NCBI GenBank assembly: GCA_025463265.1
Contig: JAOBWH010000044.1
Span: 1-57,205 of the forward strand
Reading direction: 5' to 3'
DNA: 57,205 nucleotides
DNA from: Ilumatobacteraceae bacterium
GTDB lineage: Bacteria; Actinomycetota; Acidimicrobiia; Acidimicrobiales; Iamiaceae
The notes under the pieces are model-generated. The model ran no database searches, was not told where the DNA came from, and saw only the letters and a list, made by a program, of their open reading frames with translations. Shown piece after piece: positions 24,337 to 50,271 of this stretch (the stretch's first letter is position 1; every line of letters begins with the position of its first letter). The position numbers and the translations under genes were made by a program.

Positions 24337-26481
<2,145 letters not shown>

Positions 26482-29712: not shown

Positions 29713-29789
<77 letters not shown>

Positions 29790-44781: not shown

Positions 44782-45131
44782 GTGCGTTCCTTCTTCGTTG
44801 GTGTGGGATCGATGCGGGCGGAGGTCCGGTCGAGGTGCTGCTCGAGGCGGTCGAGCCGGGTCGCCCACTCGGCCCGGAAGGGCTCGAGCCACGCGTCGAG
44901 GGCCATGAGGGGCTCCGGGCGCAGCCGGTACAGGCGGCGCTGAGCGTCTCGGCGGACTTCGACGAGCCCGGCGTCGCGCAGGATCTTGAGGTGGCGGGAC
45001 ACGCCGGGCTGGTGCATGCCCACCTCTTCGACCAGCTCGCCGACCGAGCGCTCACCGGTGCGGACCACGTCGAGGATCCGCCGGCGCGTGGGCTCGGCGA
45101 TCGCGTCGAGCACGGCGAGGTCGGAGGGCAT
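44778..45131 (-). CDS. ArsR-family regulator heading the SRPBCC operon
   Basis: 117 residues from ATG at 45131: LDAIAEPTRRRILDVVRTGERSVGELVEEVGMHQPGVSRHLKILRDAGLVEVRRDAQRRLYRL is a complete ArsR winged helix, with no metal-binding cysteines. In-frame ATGs exist at 45137, 45143 and 45167, but the promoter -10 (TATGTT) covers 45144-45139 and predicts transcription from about 45131, so the innermost ATG is preferred as a leaderless start. A CACATATATGTG palindrome overlies the promoter. Confidence 0.88.
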   Translation of the reverse strand: MPSDLAVLDAIAEPTRRRILDVVRTGERSVGELVEEVGMHQPGVSRHLKILRDAGLVEVRRDAQRRLYRLRPEPLMALDAWLEPFRAEWATRLDRLEQHLDRTSARIDPTPTKKERT

Positions 45132-45138
45132 GGGCATT

Positions 45139-45167
45139 AACATACGGGACTCCACATATATGTGCAA
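45139..45167 (-). promoter_or_regulatory. arsR promoter with embedded palindromic operator
   Basis: On the minus strand TTGCAC (45167-45162), 17-nt spacer and TATGTT (45144-45139) form a good promoter, with the start site predicted 8 nt later at the ATG. The perfect 12-bp palindrome CACATATATGTG (45153-45164) overlaps the -35 and spacer, an ideal place for ArsR autorepression. Confidence 0.65.
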
Positions 45168-45231
45168 GTGGATGGACCGAGCGAGCCGGACGAAGCTCGA
45201 GCCACCCGGTGCGACCAGGGATTTGCGGCGT

Positions 45232-45237
45232 TAGGGT
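45232..45237 (+). promoter_or_regulatory. -10 box of the repeat-peptide/cupin operon
   Basis: TAGGGT followed by 6 nt and the ATG of the repeat peptide, the same arrangement as at other predicted leaderless starts in this window. No clear -35 is visible. No Shine-Dalgarno sequence precedes the ATG. Confidence 0.5.
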
Positions 45238-45243
45238 CCGACC

Positions 45244-45450
45244 ATGGGCATCTCGAACGACGACATCACCACCTCCGACGCCGAAGAGGAGATCCTCCCC
45301 GGAGGCGACACCGATGGCACCGATGGCGGTGACACGGACGGCACCGATGGCGGTGACACCGATGGCACCGATGGCGGTGACACCGATGGCACCGATGGTG
45401 GCGACACCGATGGCACCGATGGTGGCGACACCGACGGCACTGACAGCTGA
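45244..45450 (+). CDS. Repeat peptide, candidate RiPP precursor
   Basis: 68-residue peptide. Residues 1-19 (MGISNDDITTSDAEEEILP) form an acidic leader-like segment; residues 20-67 are six exact copies of GGDTDGTD, and Ser68 ends it. The leader/repeat junction ILPGG resembles a double-glycine cleavage site. The gene directly overlaps a JmjC-type cupin oxygenase gene, which is followed by a sucrase/ferredoxin-like gene. This precursor-plus-modifying-enzyme layout suggests that Asp or Thr side chains of the repeats are hydroxylated or otherwise modified. DxDGxD also resembles calcium-binding loops, an alternative or additional role. No named family recognised. Confidence 0.7.
   Translation: MGISNDDITTSDAEEEILPGGDTDGTDGGDTDGTDGGDTDGTDGGDTDGTDGGDTDGTDGGDTDGTDS
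45301..45444 (+). repeat. Six 24-bp tandem repeats
   Basis: Six contiguous 24-bp units encode GGDTDGTD in the peptide frame. Units differ only at synonymous positions (GGC/GGT, GAT/GAC, ACC/ACG), which shows the repeated peptide is under selection or recently expanded. In the +1 frame each unit carries ATG codons, the frame used by the downstream cupin. Confidence 0.9.
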
Positions 45451-46741
45451 TCTGGGCCAGCCCGAGTGGCTGGTCCGCCGCCAACCGCACCCCGACGCAC
45501 CGGGGCTCGCTGATCTGGTCGACGACGTCGGTCGCTTCCGCGCCGACGACGTCTACCGCCGACCCCGGGTGACCGACCCGGCGACCCGGCGCGACCGGGC
45601 CCGCCTCGGCGACCCTGCCGTCCTGTGGGCGGACCTCCTGGGCCGGTCCGCCCGGCGCCCCGCCTTCCGGCTGGTGCGGGAGGGTGCCACGGCCGATGCT
45701 GCGGGCCTCACCCGCCCGGCGCGCATCGGCGACCGGGACCTCACCGACCTGGCCGCGCCCAACCGGATCATCAACGGATACCGCGGCGGCGCCACCGTCG
45801 TGCTCCAGGGCCTCCACCTCACCGACCCGGCGCTGGCCCGGTTCGCCAACAACCTGGCGCTCGAGCTGGACCAGCCGGTGCAGGTCAACGCCTACCTGTC
45901 GCCGGCCTCGGCCCGGGGCCTCGACGTGCACTTCGACTACCACGACGTGTTCGTCGCCCAGCTCGAGGGCACGAAGCGGTGGCGGGTGTGGGCGCCGACC
46001 GAGCGCAGCCGCGAGCCCATCGGCGGGAGGCACGCCGTGCCCCGTCCCCGGCTCGATGAGCTGGGCGACCCCCTGCTCGACCTCGTGCTCGAGGCTGGCG
46101 ATGTGCTCTACCTGCCTCGAGGCCACCCGCACGTGGCCGAGACCACCGACCGCGCCTCGGCGCACCTCACCGTGGGACTGCTCGCCATCACCTGGCACCG
46201 CATCGTGCGCCGGGCGGTGGACGACGAGATCGGGGCCGGCCGCCTCCGCTCGTCCATCCCCCTGTCCTCGCTCGACGACGACCGCGACGACCGCACCGAC
46301 GGGAACGATCGCGGTGAGGGCGGCGGCGATCCGGTCGGCCCGGATGCCCCGTCGGTCGCCGGACTGGACCTCGATCTCGGCTCGGTCGCGGTCCGGCGGT
46401 GGGTGGCGCAGGAGATCTGGAGCAAGCAGGCGGCCACGCGGCTCCGTCCGATCGAGCCGCCCGATGCCGGCGCGGCCGACGGACCCCTGGCCTTCGCCCC
46501 CGGTCCGCTCCTCACCCTCAGCACGGAGTCCGGCCGCTCGATCCTGTTCGCCGGCGACCGCACCGTCGACCTGCCCGACGAGGCCCATCCGTTCCTCGTC
46601 GCCCTGTTCCGGGCGGATGACGGGGTGTGCCGGCGGGACCTGCCCGGCCTCGACGACGAGTCCTCGCGCGTCGTGGTCTCCCGACTGCTCGACGAAGGGG
46701 TGCTCATCTCCCACGCGCCCACCGGCGGTCGCGCGCGGTGA
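45419..46741 (+). CDS. JmjC/ROX-type cupin oxygenase
   Basis: 440 residues if started at ATG 45419, inside the last repeat of the preceding peptide gene; further ATGs in the same frame occur in each repeat, so the exact start is uncertain. The JmjC-like double-stranded beta-helix (residues about 90-250) has the Fe(II) facial triad His171-x-Asp173 in DVHFDYHD and His238 in YLPRGHPHVAET, with QLEGTKRWRVW typical of the ROXA/NO66/MINA53 family of 2-oxoglutarate hydroxylases. A C-terminal winged-helix-like region (FLVALFRADDGVCRRDLPG, VVVSRLLDEGVLI) matches that family. Likely hydroxylates a protein or peptide side chain, here perhaps the repeat peptide. Confidence 0.85.
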   Translation: MVATPTALTADLGQPEWLVRRQPHPDAPGLADLVDDVGRFRADDVYRRPRVTDPATRRDRARLGDPAVLWADLLGRSARRPAFRLVREGATADAAGLTRPARIGDRDLTDLAAPNRIINGYRGGATVVLQGLHLTDPALARFANNLALELDQPVQVNAYLSPASARGLDVHFDYHDVFVAQLEGTKRWRVWAPTERSREPIGGRHAVPRPRLDELGDPLLDLVLEAGDVLYLPRGHPHVAETTDRASAHLTVGLLAITWHRIVRRAVDDEIGAGRLRSSIPLSSLDDDRDDRTDGNDRGEGGGDPVGPDAPSVAGLDLDLGSVAVRRWVAQEIWSKQAATRLRPIEPPDAGAADGPLAFAPGPLLTLSTESGRSILFAGDRTVDLPDEAHPFLVALFRADDGVCRRDLPGLDDESSRVVVSRLLDEGVLISHAPTGGRAR

Positions 46742-47691
46742 CCGACCGGTTCGTGTGCTCCGATGCCTCGGTGGGACGCGGCGAGGTGGTCGTGGCCACC
46801 GCGTCGCAGGTCCGGGCCTGGCTGCTCATCGAGGTCCACGGGGCCTGGGGCATCGATGCCATCAGCGACAGCCACCTCGGCGTCCACCTGCCCGCCGGGT
46901 GGAAGGCCGGGCTCCAACGCCGCGGCATCCGGCCCATCTGCATCCGCCCTGCGCAGCGGCCTGCCGTGGAACCCGAGACCGCTCGCATCTTCTTCGTGGT
47001 GGCCGCTCGGCCCGGCCGGACCGAAGGCGCCGTCTGGAGCCGGACGCTGCCCACCCTGTCGGCCGTCCGCCACGTCACCGACGAGCTACAGATCGGTGAG
47101 GAGCCCCCCGGTTGGGAGCGTGATCCGGGCCGGCTCGCGCTGGTGTGCACCAACGGCAAGCACGACCAGTGCTGCGCCAACGAGGGCCGTCCGGTCGTGC
47201 GCCACCTGCGCGGGACGCGGTGGGCCGACGAGGTCTGGGAGTGCTCGCACATCGGTGGCGACCGCTTCGCCGCCAACCTGCTGGTGCTGCCCGACAGCCT
47301 GTACTTCGGGCGCATGGAGCCTTCGGAGGCCGAGCAGCTGCTCGACGCCCACGCCGACGGCCAGATCGCGCTCGAGTGGTACCGCGGGCGCTCGACGCTC
47401 ACGTTCCCCGAGCAGGCGGCGGAGCACGCCCTCCGGTCCGCCTTCGAGGTCCGCGGCCTCGACGATGTCGTGGTGGAGCCCACCGAGGAGCGCAACCGGT
47501 ACCGGGCGCAGGTCGTCGGCGTCGGCACGGTCGACGTGGGCATCGAGCGCACGGTCGGGCGCACCGTCGAGCCGCTCACCTGTCGGGGGACGCCGGACCA
47601 AGAGGTGCCGCACTACACCGCGACCGTGGTGACCGAGGTCGACCAGAGCGGTGCGGGCGATGCAGCGGATGCCCCGGTGGACGGTGCCTAG
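46738..47691 (+). CDS. Sucrase/ferredoxin-like family protein
   Basis: 317-residue protein of the Suc_Fer-like family (thioredoxin-fold [2Fe-2S] ferredoxin relatives). The signature is LVCTNGKHDQCCANEGRPV (Cys137, Cys145, Cys146), followed by VWECSHIGGDRFAANLLVLP. GTG start overlaps the cupin stop (GTGA), so it belongs to the same operon. Could supply electrons to the cupin enzyme or act as a redox carrier; that is inference. Its stop shares CTAG with the convergent kinase gene. Confidence 0.88.
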   Translation: MTDRFVCSDASVGRGEVVVATASQVRAWLLIEVHGAWGIDAISDSHLGVHLPAGWKAGLQRRGIRPICIRPAQRPAVEPETARIFFVVAARPGRTEGAVWSRTLPTLSAVRHVTDELQIGEEPPGWERDPGRLALVCTNGKHDQCCANEGRPVVRHLRGTRWADEVWECSHIGGDRFAANLLVLPDSLYFGRMEPSEAEQLLDAHADGQIALEWYRGRSTLTFPEQAAEHALRSAFEVRGLDDVVVEPTEERNRYRAQVVGVGTVDVGIERTVGRTVEPLTCRGTPDQEVPHYTATVVTEVDQSGAGDAADAPVDGA

Positions 47692-48779
47692 GCGGGCAGC
47701 CGGACGCTGACGGTGAGGCCGCCCCCGGGTCGGGGTGCCACCGACAGGGTGCCGTCGTGGGCGGTGGCGATGCTCCTGGCGATCGCCAGGCCGAGGCCGA
47801 CCCCCTCGTGCTCGGTGCGGATGCGCTCGGCGCCGCGCTGGAAGGGCTCGGTGAGCGTCGTCGCCACCTCGCTGCTGACCACGGCGCCGGTGTTGGCCAC
47901 CTCGAGCAGGACGGCCGTCTCGTCGGCGCCGGTCGTGATCCACACGGTCCCGTGCTCGGGCTGGTTGTGGACGATGGCGTTGTGGGCCAGGTTCGTCGTC
48001 AGCTGCAGCAGCAGGGCGTGGGACCCGGTGGTGGGGGCGGGGCCGCCGTCGATCTCGATCTCGACGCCGTGCTGGTCGCCGACGGGGAGCAGGGCCTCGA
48101 GGGCCTCCTCGACGATGAGGGAGAGGTCGACGGCCTCGTGGGCGAACGAGCGCTGATCCGCCTGGCTGAGCACGAGCAGGGCCTGGGTCAGGCCGATCGC
48201 CCGGTCGTTGACGGTCTGGAGGCGATCGATGAGGGCGTCCACATCCGGGTCGTCCTGCCTGCTGGCGACCTCGAGCAGCGTCTTGGTGATGGCGAGGGGG
48301 GTGCGCAGCTCGTGCGATGCGTTGGCGGAGAAGCGCCGTTGCTGGTCGACGTGGGCCTCGAGCCGGGCGAGCATCGTGTCGAACGCGTCGGCCAGCTCCC
48401 GGAACTCGTCCTGGCGGCCTTCCATCTCGATGCGGTGGGCGAGCGATCCGGTGCCTGCGAGGCGGGTTGCGGCCGTGATGCGCTCCAGCGGCCTCAGCAT
48501 CCGGCCGGCGAGGAGCCATCCGCCGACGAGCCCGATCACGAGCAGCACCCCCATCGCGACGGCGGCCCGGGGAGCGAAGACGCGCAGGAGGGTGGACCGG
48601 ATCGGGAAGACCCCCGTGCCCAGGTCGGGATCGTCGGTGCTCAGCATCGCCCGGTCGGGCACGTAGCGGAGCAGGTACAACCACACTGCGGCGAGCAGCA
48701 CGGCGCCCGCGAGCACGAGGAACCCGGTGTAGCTGAGGGTCAGCTTCAGGCGGACGCTCATCCCGGGCCGCCTAGCCAT
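47688..48779 (-). CDS. VanS-like sensor histidine kinase
   Basis: 363 residues. Two membrane helices (about 10-35 and 70-92) flank a short extracytoplasmic loop, then a HAMP domain (GRMLRPLERITAATRLAGTGS), HisKA with SANASHELRTPLAITKTLLE, and an ATPase domain with NLAHNAIVHNQ and GVGLGLAIARSIA. Its start overlaps the response regulator end by 8 nt (48772-48779). The pair is divergent from a VanY-like carboxypeptidase, suggesting a cell-wall stress response. Confidence 0.92.
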   Translation of the reverse strand: MARRPGMSVRLKLTLSYTGFLVLAGAVLLAAVWLYLLRYVPDRAMLSTDDPDLGTGVFPIRSTLLRVFAPRAAVAMGVLLVIGLVGGWLLAGRMLRPLERITAATRLAGTGSLAHRIEMEGRQDEFRELADAFDTMLARLEAHVDQQRRFSANASHELRTPLAITKTLLEVASRQDDPDVDALIDRLQTVNDRAIGLTQALLVLSQADQRSFAHEAVDLSLIVEEALEALLPVGDQHGVEIEIDGGPAPTTGSHALLLQLTTNLAHNAIVHNQPEHGTVWITTGADETAVLLEVANTGAVVSSEVATTLTEPFQRGAERIRTEHEGVGLGLAIARSIATAHDGTLSVAPRPGGGLTVSVRLPA

Positions 48780-49476
48780 CTCGGTTCGCCCGGTGCTGGC
48801 CGCCGGTCTGGTCCGGTTCGGTCTCGATGCGGTACCCGACGCCGGTGACGGTGCCGATGATCGGTGGGGCGCCGAGCCGCTTGCGCAGCGCCGAGATGGT
48901 GATGCGCACCGCGTTGGTGAACGGGTCGGCGTGGGCGTCCCACGCTCGTTCCAGGAGGTCCTCAGCGCTGACGACGCCGCCCTCGGCCCCGACGAGCACC
49001 TCCAGCACCGCGAACTGCTTCCTCGTGAGCGCGACGTAGCGCCCGTCGCGGAACACCTCCCGTCGGAACGGGTCCAGCCGCAGGCCGGCCAGCTCGCGCA
49101 CCGGCGGCCGGGCGTGGGCCCGGCGGCGATCGAGCGCCCGCAGGCGCAGGACCAGTTCCTGGAGCTCGAACGGCTTGGTCAGGTAGTCGTCCGCCCCGAG
49201 CTCGAACCCGGTGGCCTTGTCGTCGAGCCGGTCGGCCGCGGTGAGCATGAGGATGCCCGTGCCGCGCCCGGAGGCGACGATGCGCGCCGCGATCTCATCG
49301 CCGTCGGGACCGGGGATGTCCCGGTCGAGGATGGCGATGTCGTAGTCGTTGACCTCCAGCAGATCGAGCGCGGTGTCGCCGTCGCCCGCGGTGTCGGCGG
49401 CGATGGCTTCGAGGCGCAGGCCGTCACGGATCGCGTCGGCCAGCAGCGGCTCGTCCTCCACGATCAGCACACGCAT
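48772..49476 (-). CDS. OmpR/VanR-like response regulator
   Basis: 234 residues. Receiver with MRVLIVEDEP, phospho-acceptor Asp51 in DIAILDRDIPGPDGDEI, ADDYLTKPFELQEL; winged-helix output domain with ELAGLRLDPFRREVFRDGRYVALTRKQFAVLEVL and GTVTGVGYRIE. The sequence around the phospho-Asp (LDRDIPGPDGDE) is characteristic of VanR/CutR-like regulators of actinobacteria. Partner of the overlapping kinase. Confidence 0.94.
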   Translation of the reverse strand: MRVLIVEDEPLLADAIRDGLRLEAIAADTAGDGDTALDLLEVNDYDIAILDRDIPGPDGDEIAARIVASGRGTGILMLTAADRLDDKATGFELGADDYLTKPFELQELVLRLRALDRRRAHARPPVRELAGLRLDPFRREVFRDGRYVALTRKQFAVLEVLVGAEGGVVSAEDLLERAWDAHADPFTNAVRITISALRKRLGAPPIIGTVTGVGYRIETEPDQTGGQHRANRDG

Positions 49477-49563
49477 CAGCGTGAGCGTCCCAGATCGGGT
49501 GTGTCGTCGGCGTATCGAGAACCGCGTACGGGCCGGGAACACCGGATCGCGTTCCCTGGGCGC

Positions 49564-50271
49564 ATGACCCCCAGCAAACCAGCCCGCACCGCGACGCGCC
49601 GATCGCGGGTGGCGACGACTGTGGTCGTCGTGGCTGCGGTCGTGGGGCTGATCGCCCTCGTCAGCTCCCGACGGTCCGGTCCGGCTCCCGACCTCGCCGC
49701 CCGATCGATGCGGACGACGAGCGCCTTCGCATCCGATCCGGCCGCACCGGCGCATCTGGCCGACCCGTCCGGTCCGGTCCACCCGTCGCCGCCTCCGCAG
49801 GCGGCGGAGGACGGGGCCATCGGCGAGGACGACGGGGTCCTGCCTGACGGGGTGACGGTCTTCCGAGACGACGTCGCCGGCGTGGCCGACCTGGACCCCG
49901 CCCTGCTGGCCGCCCTCCGAGCTGCAGCCACCGACGCGGCGGGTGACGGGGTCGAGTTCACGGTCCACAGCGGTTGGCGGTCTCGTGCGTACCAGGAGGA
50001 CCTGCTGCGGGAGGCGGTCGTGAAGTACGCATCGGAAGAGGAGGCCGCACGATGGGTGGCACCGCCCGACCGGTCGGCCCACGTGTCGGGGGACGCCATC
50101 GACCTCGAGTCCGGTGCGGCCCGCTGGCTTGCCCGGCACGGCGCCGCCTACGGGCTCTGCCAGGTCTACGACAACGAGGACTGGCACTACGAGCTGCGCC
50201 CCGATGCCGCCCGCGACGGCTGTCCCGACCGGTACGCCGACGCCGCGCACGACCCGCGGATGCAGCCCTGA
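49564..50271 (+). CDS. VanY-like M15 D-Ala-D-Ala carboxypeptidase
   Basis: 235-residue membrane-anchored peptidase (single helix about residues 17-34, then a disordered linker). The M15B motifs are complete: SGWRSRAYQ, zinc ligands in SAHVSGDAIDL (SxHxxGxAxD) and DWHYEL (WHxE). It would trim the terminal D-Ala of peptidoglycan stem peptides outside the cell. Divergent from the VanRS-like two-component genes 87 nt away, the classical layout of a regulated vanY. Confidence 0.92.
   Translation: MTPSKPARTATRRSRVATTVVVVAAVVGLIALVSSRRSGPAPDLAARSMRTTSAFASDPAAPAHLADPSGPVHPSPPPQAAEDGAIGEDDGVLPDGVTVFRDDVAGVADLDPALLAALRAAATDAAGDGVEFTVHSGWRSRAYQEDLLREAVVKYASEEEAARWVAPPDRSAHVSGDAIDLESGAARWLARHGAAYGLCQVYDNEDWHYELRPDAARDGCPDRYADAAHDPRMQP

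Follow-up and report, generated by a model that had tools for sequence, protein, structure and literature searches.

The locus lies on the forward strand of contig JAOBWH010000044.1 from an Ilumatobacteraceae bacterium, analysed over 57,205 nucleotides (the window), and consists of three genes that encode a short repetitive peptide, a cupin and a Suc_Fer-like protein (Table 1). The cupin matches the JmjC_2 family (PF08007) with 92.4 bits against a cut-off of 22, and the Suc_Fer-like ORF matches PF06999 with 67.4 bits against a cut-off of 34.9. The first-pass annotation described both gene pairs as overlapping: the Suc_Fer-like ORF (GTG at 46738) does share 4 nt with the last codons of the cupin gene, whereas an overlap of peptide and cupin genes depends on which cupin start is used. 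The last in-frame ATG (45419) and GTG (45422) both fall within the peptide gene, and CTG codons at 45440, 45452 and 45470 are further candidates. The three genes are preceded by genes for an ArsR-type regulator, an AHSA1 protein and a RibD_C protein, and are followed by a two-component pair and a VanY-like gene; no sigma-70 promoter or terminator was detected in window positions 45050-47900. The downstream histidine kinase, response regulator and VanY-like carboxypeptidase lie side by side at 47688-50271, and the kinase resembles VanS-O (419 bits, under the cut-off of 720). Elsewhere, the window carries about 45 copies of a CCGAGC hexamer (25436-25706, 86% match), beside it a 99-base repeat of 2.2 copies (24866-25083), and a tRNA gene (29713-29786; Rfam, 66 bits).

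Table 1. Features of the peptide-cupin locus, in window positions.
Feature	Position	Strand	Remarks
Precursor peptide gene	45244..45450	+	68 aa: leader + (GGDTDGTD)6 + S
Leader-like part MGISNDDITTSDAEEEILP	45244..45300	+	NDDI motif, resembles xDDD(I/M) of relatives
Core: six GGDTDGTD units + final Ser	45301..45447	+	inter-unit differences synonymous only
JmjC_2 / ribosomal-oxygenase-type cupin	45419..46741	+	start uncertain; homology to relatives from ~45503
Cupin C-terminal winged-helix / RRE-like domain	~46505..46714	+	model residues 356-425
Suc_Fer-like protein (sucrase/ferredoxin-like family), putative accessory	46738..47691	+	GTG start; PF06999 match

The window peptide is composed of the 19-residue MGISNDDITTSDAEEEILP, six exact GGDTDGTD octapeptides (48 residues) and a terminal serine, which confirms on the sequence the 68-residue product, with leader-like part and repeats, reported in the first-pass annotation. 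Neither this peptide nor seven of its relatives matches a Pfam or NCBIfam model at the curated cut-off. The six DNA repeat units vary at six nucleotide positions, every one a third codon position, and pairwise comparison of the units yields 43 synonymous and 0 non-synonymous codon differences, whereas random single changes would be silent in 25% of cases. Since all differences are synonymous, selection maintains the amino-acid sequence of the repeat.

To define the distribution of the pair, genomes were scanned with 21 cupins, which returned at least 550 relatives; the best 80 were taken as named loci (L numbers denote loci). These belong mainly to Micromonospora, Salinispora, Mycolicibacterium, Gordonia, Dietzia, Microbacteriaceae, Frankiales and Acidimicrobiia, and one record among them (L060) carries the label Melainabacteria. 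By eye, a D/G-rich repeat peptide stands beside the cupin in 79 of these 80 relatives, including two whose contig holds only the end of the peptide (L057 and L081, the latter with the last 22 residues); the sole exception (L042) has 220 nt of low-complexity, C-rich sequence upstream. A mechanical peptide rule recovers 75/80 named loci and 12/307 control stretches taken from the same loci, and the composition half of the rule alone accepts 0/307. Spurious ORFs are abundant in high-GC DNA, and a chance ORF or GC-rich repeat artefact had to be considered; the contrast between loci and controls, together with the purely synonymous differences among the window units, already refutes this reading, whose probability we regard as negligible. 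The search of other genomes for repeat ORFs beside cupins, which the first-pass annotation had proposed with absence of conservation as the refuting outcome, has thus returned a conserved arrangement. In the nearest relatives, L034 and L035 (cupin identity 72% and 65%), the repeats are of the window's kind (GGDTDGTD/GGDTDGVD, AGDTDGTD) in other copy numbers.

Close to the window's organism, a JmjC_2 match was found in 2 of 12 genomes of the genus (the window's own and one distant) and in 30 of 248 genomes of the order, own included. Among the order-level loci L005-L033, an Asp-rich peptide lies directly upstream in 15 (L005-L015 and L017-L020; the leader of L008 reads N). A second peptide type, with two units like PTEDDENLDAPGEHSQDTGDE, occurs in L021-L024, and L025-L027 carry a PTEDDENLDAPGEHSQDTGDE-type peptide in divergent orientation; a contig end truncates L016, L030 and L033. 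No peptide was seen at the order-level loci L028, L029, L031 and L032, nor at L002-L004. The last three are JmjC_2 stretches within about 5 kb on one contig from a genome of the window's genus, two of them sharing one long open frame with no repeat peptide, and are perhaps another peptide-modifying cluster. In L029, the more distant JmjC_2 cupin is preceded by a short ORF (~950-1300) resembling PqqD on visual inspection.

An even sample of 396 genomes (completeness at least 90%) from the phylum of the window, Actinomycetota to judge by the named relatives, contains the cupin at E <= 1e-40 in 62 genomes, own included, or about one in six. All 67 sampled places (L114-L180) were inspected, the window's own (L141) being left out of the counts. 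Of the 53 places scoring at least 290 bits, two (L149, L180) are contig ends; in the 51 with room upstream, a peptide passes the mechanical rule in 47 and is visible by eye in 50. The four failures of the rule (L139, L140, L142, L148) all show repeats by eye, L148 with an LSDDDI leader and a DADGTD-type core, and L147 passes the leader rule and has the cupin with no convincing peptide by eye. Below 290 bits, 1/13 places passes, namely L176, which sits at the threshold and has a genuine peptide. The high pass rate above this score and the low one beneath it indicate that the peptide link belongs to one JmjC_2 subfamily, not to all. Named and sampled loci partly overlap, L047/L132 and L045/L146 carrying identical peptides, so that the two sets of counts are not fully independent. 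The first-pass annotation's picture of a repetitive precursor beside a modifying enzyme therefore holds across both sets, and an encoded precursor with leader and core adjoins the presumed modifying enzyme, as in ribosomally synthesized and post-translationally modified peptide (RiPP) systems. When the ORFs around the 80 loci were clustered, the cupin was present in 69 and Suc_Fer in 34, and every other cluster was confined to at most 19. By these counts the pair seems to lack an accompanying local protease or transporter gene, in contrast to many RiPP clusters; genes for leader removal and export are common in RiPP systems but not required, and may lie elsewhere.

The cupin carries JmjC_2 in 21/21 members, and no NCBIfam family was found at E <= 0.001 among 41 cupins. 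Its profile aligns with human NO66 (RIOX1) over the full length, winged helix included (E 3.5e-43, positions 11-398), followed by MINA53 (RIOX2; 4e-35) and, more weakly, by the bacterial uL16 arginine hydroxylase YcfD (6e-15). The AlphaFold2 model of the cupin (pLDDT 87.9, pTM 0.85) yields the same order against ribosomal oxygenase (ROX) structures: NO66 with Z 28.6 (387 aligned residues, rmsd 5.1), MINA53 with Z 27.6, and YcfD, which has the same fold and domain order, with Z 19.8. The HxD...H triad noted in the first-pass annotation is present as HFD...H, and the iron ligands H164, D166 and H231, together with K179, N150 and Y152, are present in 41/41 cupins. K179 aligns with the 2-oxoglutarate (2OG) ligand lysine of NO66, so that triad and aligned 2OG-binding lysine co-occur in 41/41; JmjC and winged-helix domains lie in one chain, and the dimerisation region is traceable through the NO66 alignment only. 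When a NO66 fragment is used to rank the relatives, the top 42 of 180 matches in loci include none listed as an unlinked JmjC_2, and the first unlinked locus appears at rank 43, by a hand-made list and a score ranking rather than a tree; L148 was labelled unlinked there though it bears a peptide, which leaves the quoted ranks unaffected. The sequence evidence supports a hydroxylase-family enzyme with intact catalytic residues. Both the linkage and the enzyme class are firm.

As to what the cupin acts on, NO66 and MINA53 modify the ribosomal proteins Rpl8 and Rpl27a, according to the part of the source available (PMC6006756), and the window cupin is encoded beside its own repeat peptide. The ribosomal oxygenase fold would fit a peptide that serves as pseudo-substrate or regulator of the enzyme, with another protein, for example a ribosomal one, as the true target; the apparent lack of an export or protease gene travelling with the enzyme, and a peptide gene whose position is better conserved than its core sequence, would fit it too. 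Tandem core copies and their variation between lineages, with a repeat number that differs among relatives, resemble multiple substrate sites instead, and we consider the pseudo-substrate reading rather improbable. Gene context points to the adjacent peptide, over a ribosomal protein, as the target. To our knowledge, YcfD has no such peptide gene beside it.

The peptides were extracted from 125 of 135 targets with a rule that favoured Asp, Glu and Gly and also catches wrong matches; of the ten missed targets, L047, L060, L100, L112, L132 and L143 show a peptide, and L042, L081, L149 and L180 lie near contig ends. The N-terminal acidic motif usually ends in Ile or Met: in the 125 extracted peptides, NDDDI occurs 19 times, NDDDM 12, DDDDI 6, DDDDM 5 and TDEDI 5, with many single variants, and six peptides yielded no motif. 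Leader recognition is probably not uniform, as four sampled relatives (L138, L139, L142, L144) have repeats without a DDDI/M motif and the leader of L140 could not be resolved. The core types differ by lineage: EGPADGGANPGGHDGGADGSA is the majority, and the others are GGDTDGTD, strings of DGTD/DATD, and an LDAPGE...DTGDE type. The peptide of L018 is without Gly.

Asp and Gly occur in 125/125 extracted cores, Thr in 118/125 and His in 87/125. The first-pass annotation had named Asp and Thr as targets; Asp stands as the better candidate, being present in every core whereas Thr is missing from 7, an argument that is partly circular given that extraction favoured Asp, Glu and Gly. In the majority class, repeat counts were anchored on one half of the unit and the positions of the other half left free; Asp fills the free positions in 148/150 units, and the His position holds His in 116/150. 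The enzyme might instead oxidise the peptide elsewhere: at His in GGHDGG lineages, as NO66 does on Rpl8, at Thr, Asn or Gly, or by desaturation or ring closure. In favour of His, the nearest solved relatives, NO66 and MINA53, both hydroxylate this residue in the accessible text (PMC6006756), and His is common in that one core class; the window core, however, is without His, the His position differs in 34/150 units, and Thr is absent from 7/125 cores. We regard oxidation at another residue, or with another outcome, as unlikely, and prefer Asp. The crosslinking of repeats that the first-pass annotation also envisaged finds nothing in the analysis to support it.

The start of the cupin gene raises the question of how it is translated. 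After the peptide stop, 17/72 named loci have no ATG, GTG or TTG within 75 nt of the conserved cupin start, and the same lack is seen in L006, L009, L010, L013, L015, L016, L019, L020 and L023, all of which have CTG at the conserved L(A/G/S)RCV(G/D) start; in L007, L008, L011, L012 and L022, where a GTG or ATG lies upstream, the codon at this place is CTC. A CTG start with translational coupling is possible. The short ORF, which directly precedes the cupin in most loci, might on this account be an upstream leader whose translation serves to couple or attenuate that of the cupin and whose product does not matter; yet motif and repeats are conserved at the protein level, and the peptide gene is divergent from the cupin in L025-L027 and L103 with leader and repeats kept, which makes it a separate unit. 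This reading is very improbable in our estimation. Fusion of peptide and cupin by frameshift or read-through was also considered and rejected: across 72 loci the relative frames are mixed (frame 2 in 32, 0 in 22, 1 in 18) and a start codon that could serve the cupin follows the peptide stop in 55/72, which leaves no shared mechanism of this kind. In Mycolicibacterium pyrenivorans (L100, 5366-6814), the repeat-peptide frame shifts midway and continues into the cupin as one ORF, either a real change or a sequencing error. In loose consensus scans of 54 peptide-upstream stretches, no iron (IdeR/DtxR) or zinc (Zur) boxes were found, and a WhiB/Nur-type pattern gave one weak match.

The C-terminal domain of the cupin, in one model, follows the order strand-strand-strand-helix-(3-residue helix)-helix. 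RiPP recognition elements (RREs) require this strand and helix order, as stated in the accessible part of one source (PMC12710340), and on element order in that model the winged helix is RRE-like. The 21 cupin members have no PqqD-type Pfam match, and structure comparison against the PDB returned no RRE or PqqD entry, the lists being filled by JmjC proteins and hence uninformative. In 22 loci, peptide and cupin share one reading frame and a single stop codon separates them; 18 of these chains were aligned with the stop read as Gly, and the Micromonospora chain (L049) was folded with AlphaFold2. This artificial read-through chain (one job, mean pLDDT 77.1, pTM 0.70) has an ordered leader (residues 1-10, mean pLDDT 85, strand 9-12) ahead of repeats below 50 (residues 14-99). 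As a strand requires a partner, an ordered leader before a disordered linker in this one model suggests that the leader may bind the enzyme.

The Suc_Fer-like protein is less constant. Its gene directly follows the cupin gene in 42 of 80 named loci and lies 6.9 kb away in L112; it was not found in 37/80, of which L038, L044, L045, L089 and L095 have less than 1 kb of room, and it is absent from all Micromonosporaceae loci within the DNA around the cupin. The protein has the Cys/His set C7, C137, H142, C145, C146, H171 and C282, of which C137, H142, C145, C146 and H171 are kept in 35/35 sequences. The Apd1-type [2Fe-2S] ligand motif is His-x3-His plus Cys; here the second His position is Asp in 33/35 (SHIGGD), which differs from that type. 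Sequence comparison with the PDB gave chance matches to designed proteins only. The first-pass annotation cast this protein as the redox partner; adjacency in only 42/80 loci does not agree with a needed one; the trio is really a pair, and Suc_Fer is best seen as an accessory.

Taken together, we consider it fairly probable that the pair forms a minimal RiPP-like system in which the leader is held by the winged helix, the repeat Asp residues are beta-hydroxylated by the JmjC enzyme, and Suc_Fer is accessory. The RRE-like winged helix at the C-terminus of the cupin would bind the acidic xDDDI/M-like motif near the N-terminus of the short gene's product, and the Fe(II)/2OG site would then hydroxylate the Asp that recurs along the tethered, disordered repeats, most likely at its beta carbon. 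Where present, Suc_Fer could act as an accessory redox protein, for example by keeping the iron reduced, with a core reaction that would proceed independently of it. The choice of Asp, the beta position of the hydroxylation, the function of Suc_Fer and that of the peptide are all inferred; for the last, a metal-binding acidic peptide is the leading guess.

Beta-hydroxy-Asp on a ribosomal peptide is known from cinnamycin, where CinX, of another enzyme family, modifies one site within a lanthipeptide, and a 2025 study reportedly concerns 2OG-dependent macrocyclisation in RiPPs, which could bear on the present pair. JmjC/cupin enzymes that act on RiPP precursors are described in the accessible portions of two reports: BpmG, PbsQ and BipG hydroxylate ornithine in biphenomycin-type precursors (PMC12257519, PMC12707348). 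There, the hydroxylase acts as a tailoring enzyme in clusters that also provide an MNIO, an arginase activity and a B12-radical SAM enzyme, and the core, unlike the window peptide, is a short aromatic motif, with no Asp repeats in the text available. RRE-like domains fused to PF08007, with bacterial homologues (about 30% identity) in 'RiPP-like genomic contexts', are described elsewhere (PMC12710340), in the accessible part of that source without the precursor, motif, lineage or chemistry that distinguish the present pair. The literature searched, with subscription papers mostly outside its scope, contained no description of the peptide family, in agreement with the first-pass annotation, to which no described peptide class with this trio was known. 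The peptide-cupin system is real, conserved and, within that literature, undescribed.

These results point to an unstudied bacterial route to a chemically modified peptide that recurs across many actinobacteria, and two genes suffice to test enzyme, target residue and leader motif in named genera such as Micromonospora. A broader proposition, which we hold to be doubtful, is that the peptides form a phylum-wide intracellular class and that a ribosomal-oxygenase-type enzyme dedicated to them converts them to metal ligands of poly(beta-hydroxyaspartate). If true, such peptides would be the ribosomal counterpart of hydroxyaspartate siderophores, buffering iron, calcium or another hard metal, and the enzyme lineage that makes them would rank with the nearest bacterial relatives of the histidyl hydroxylases of eukaryotes. 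The pair also adds to NO66 and MINA53 a bacterial relative with a RiPP link, which bears on the origin of the eukaryotic ribosomal oxygenases and of their winged helix.
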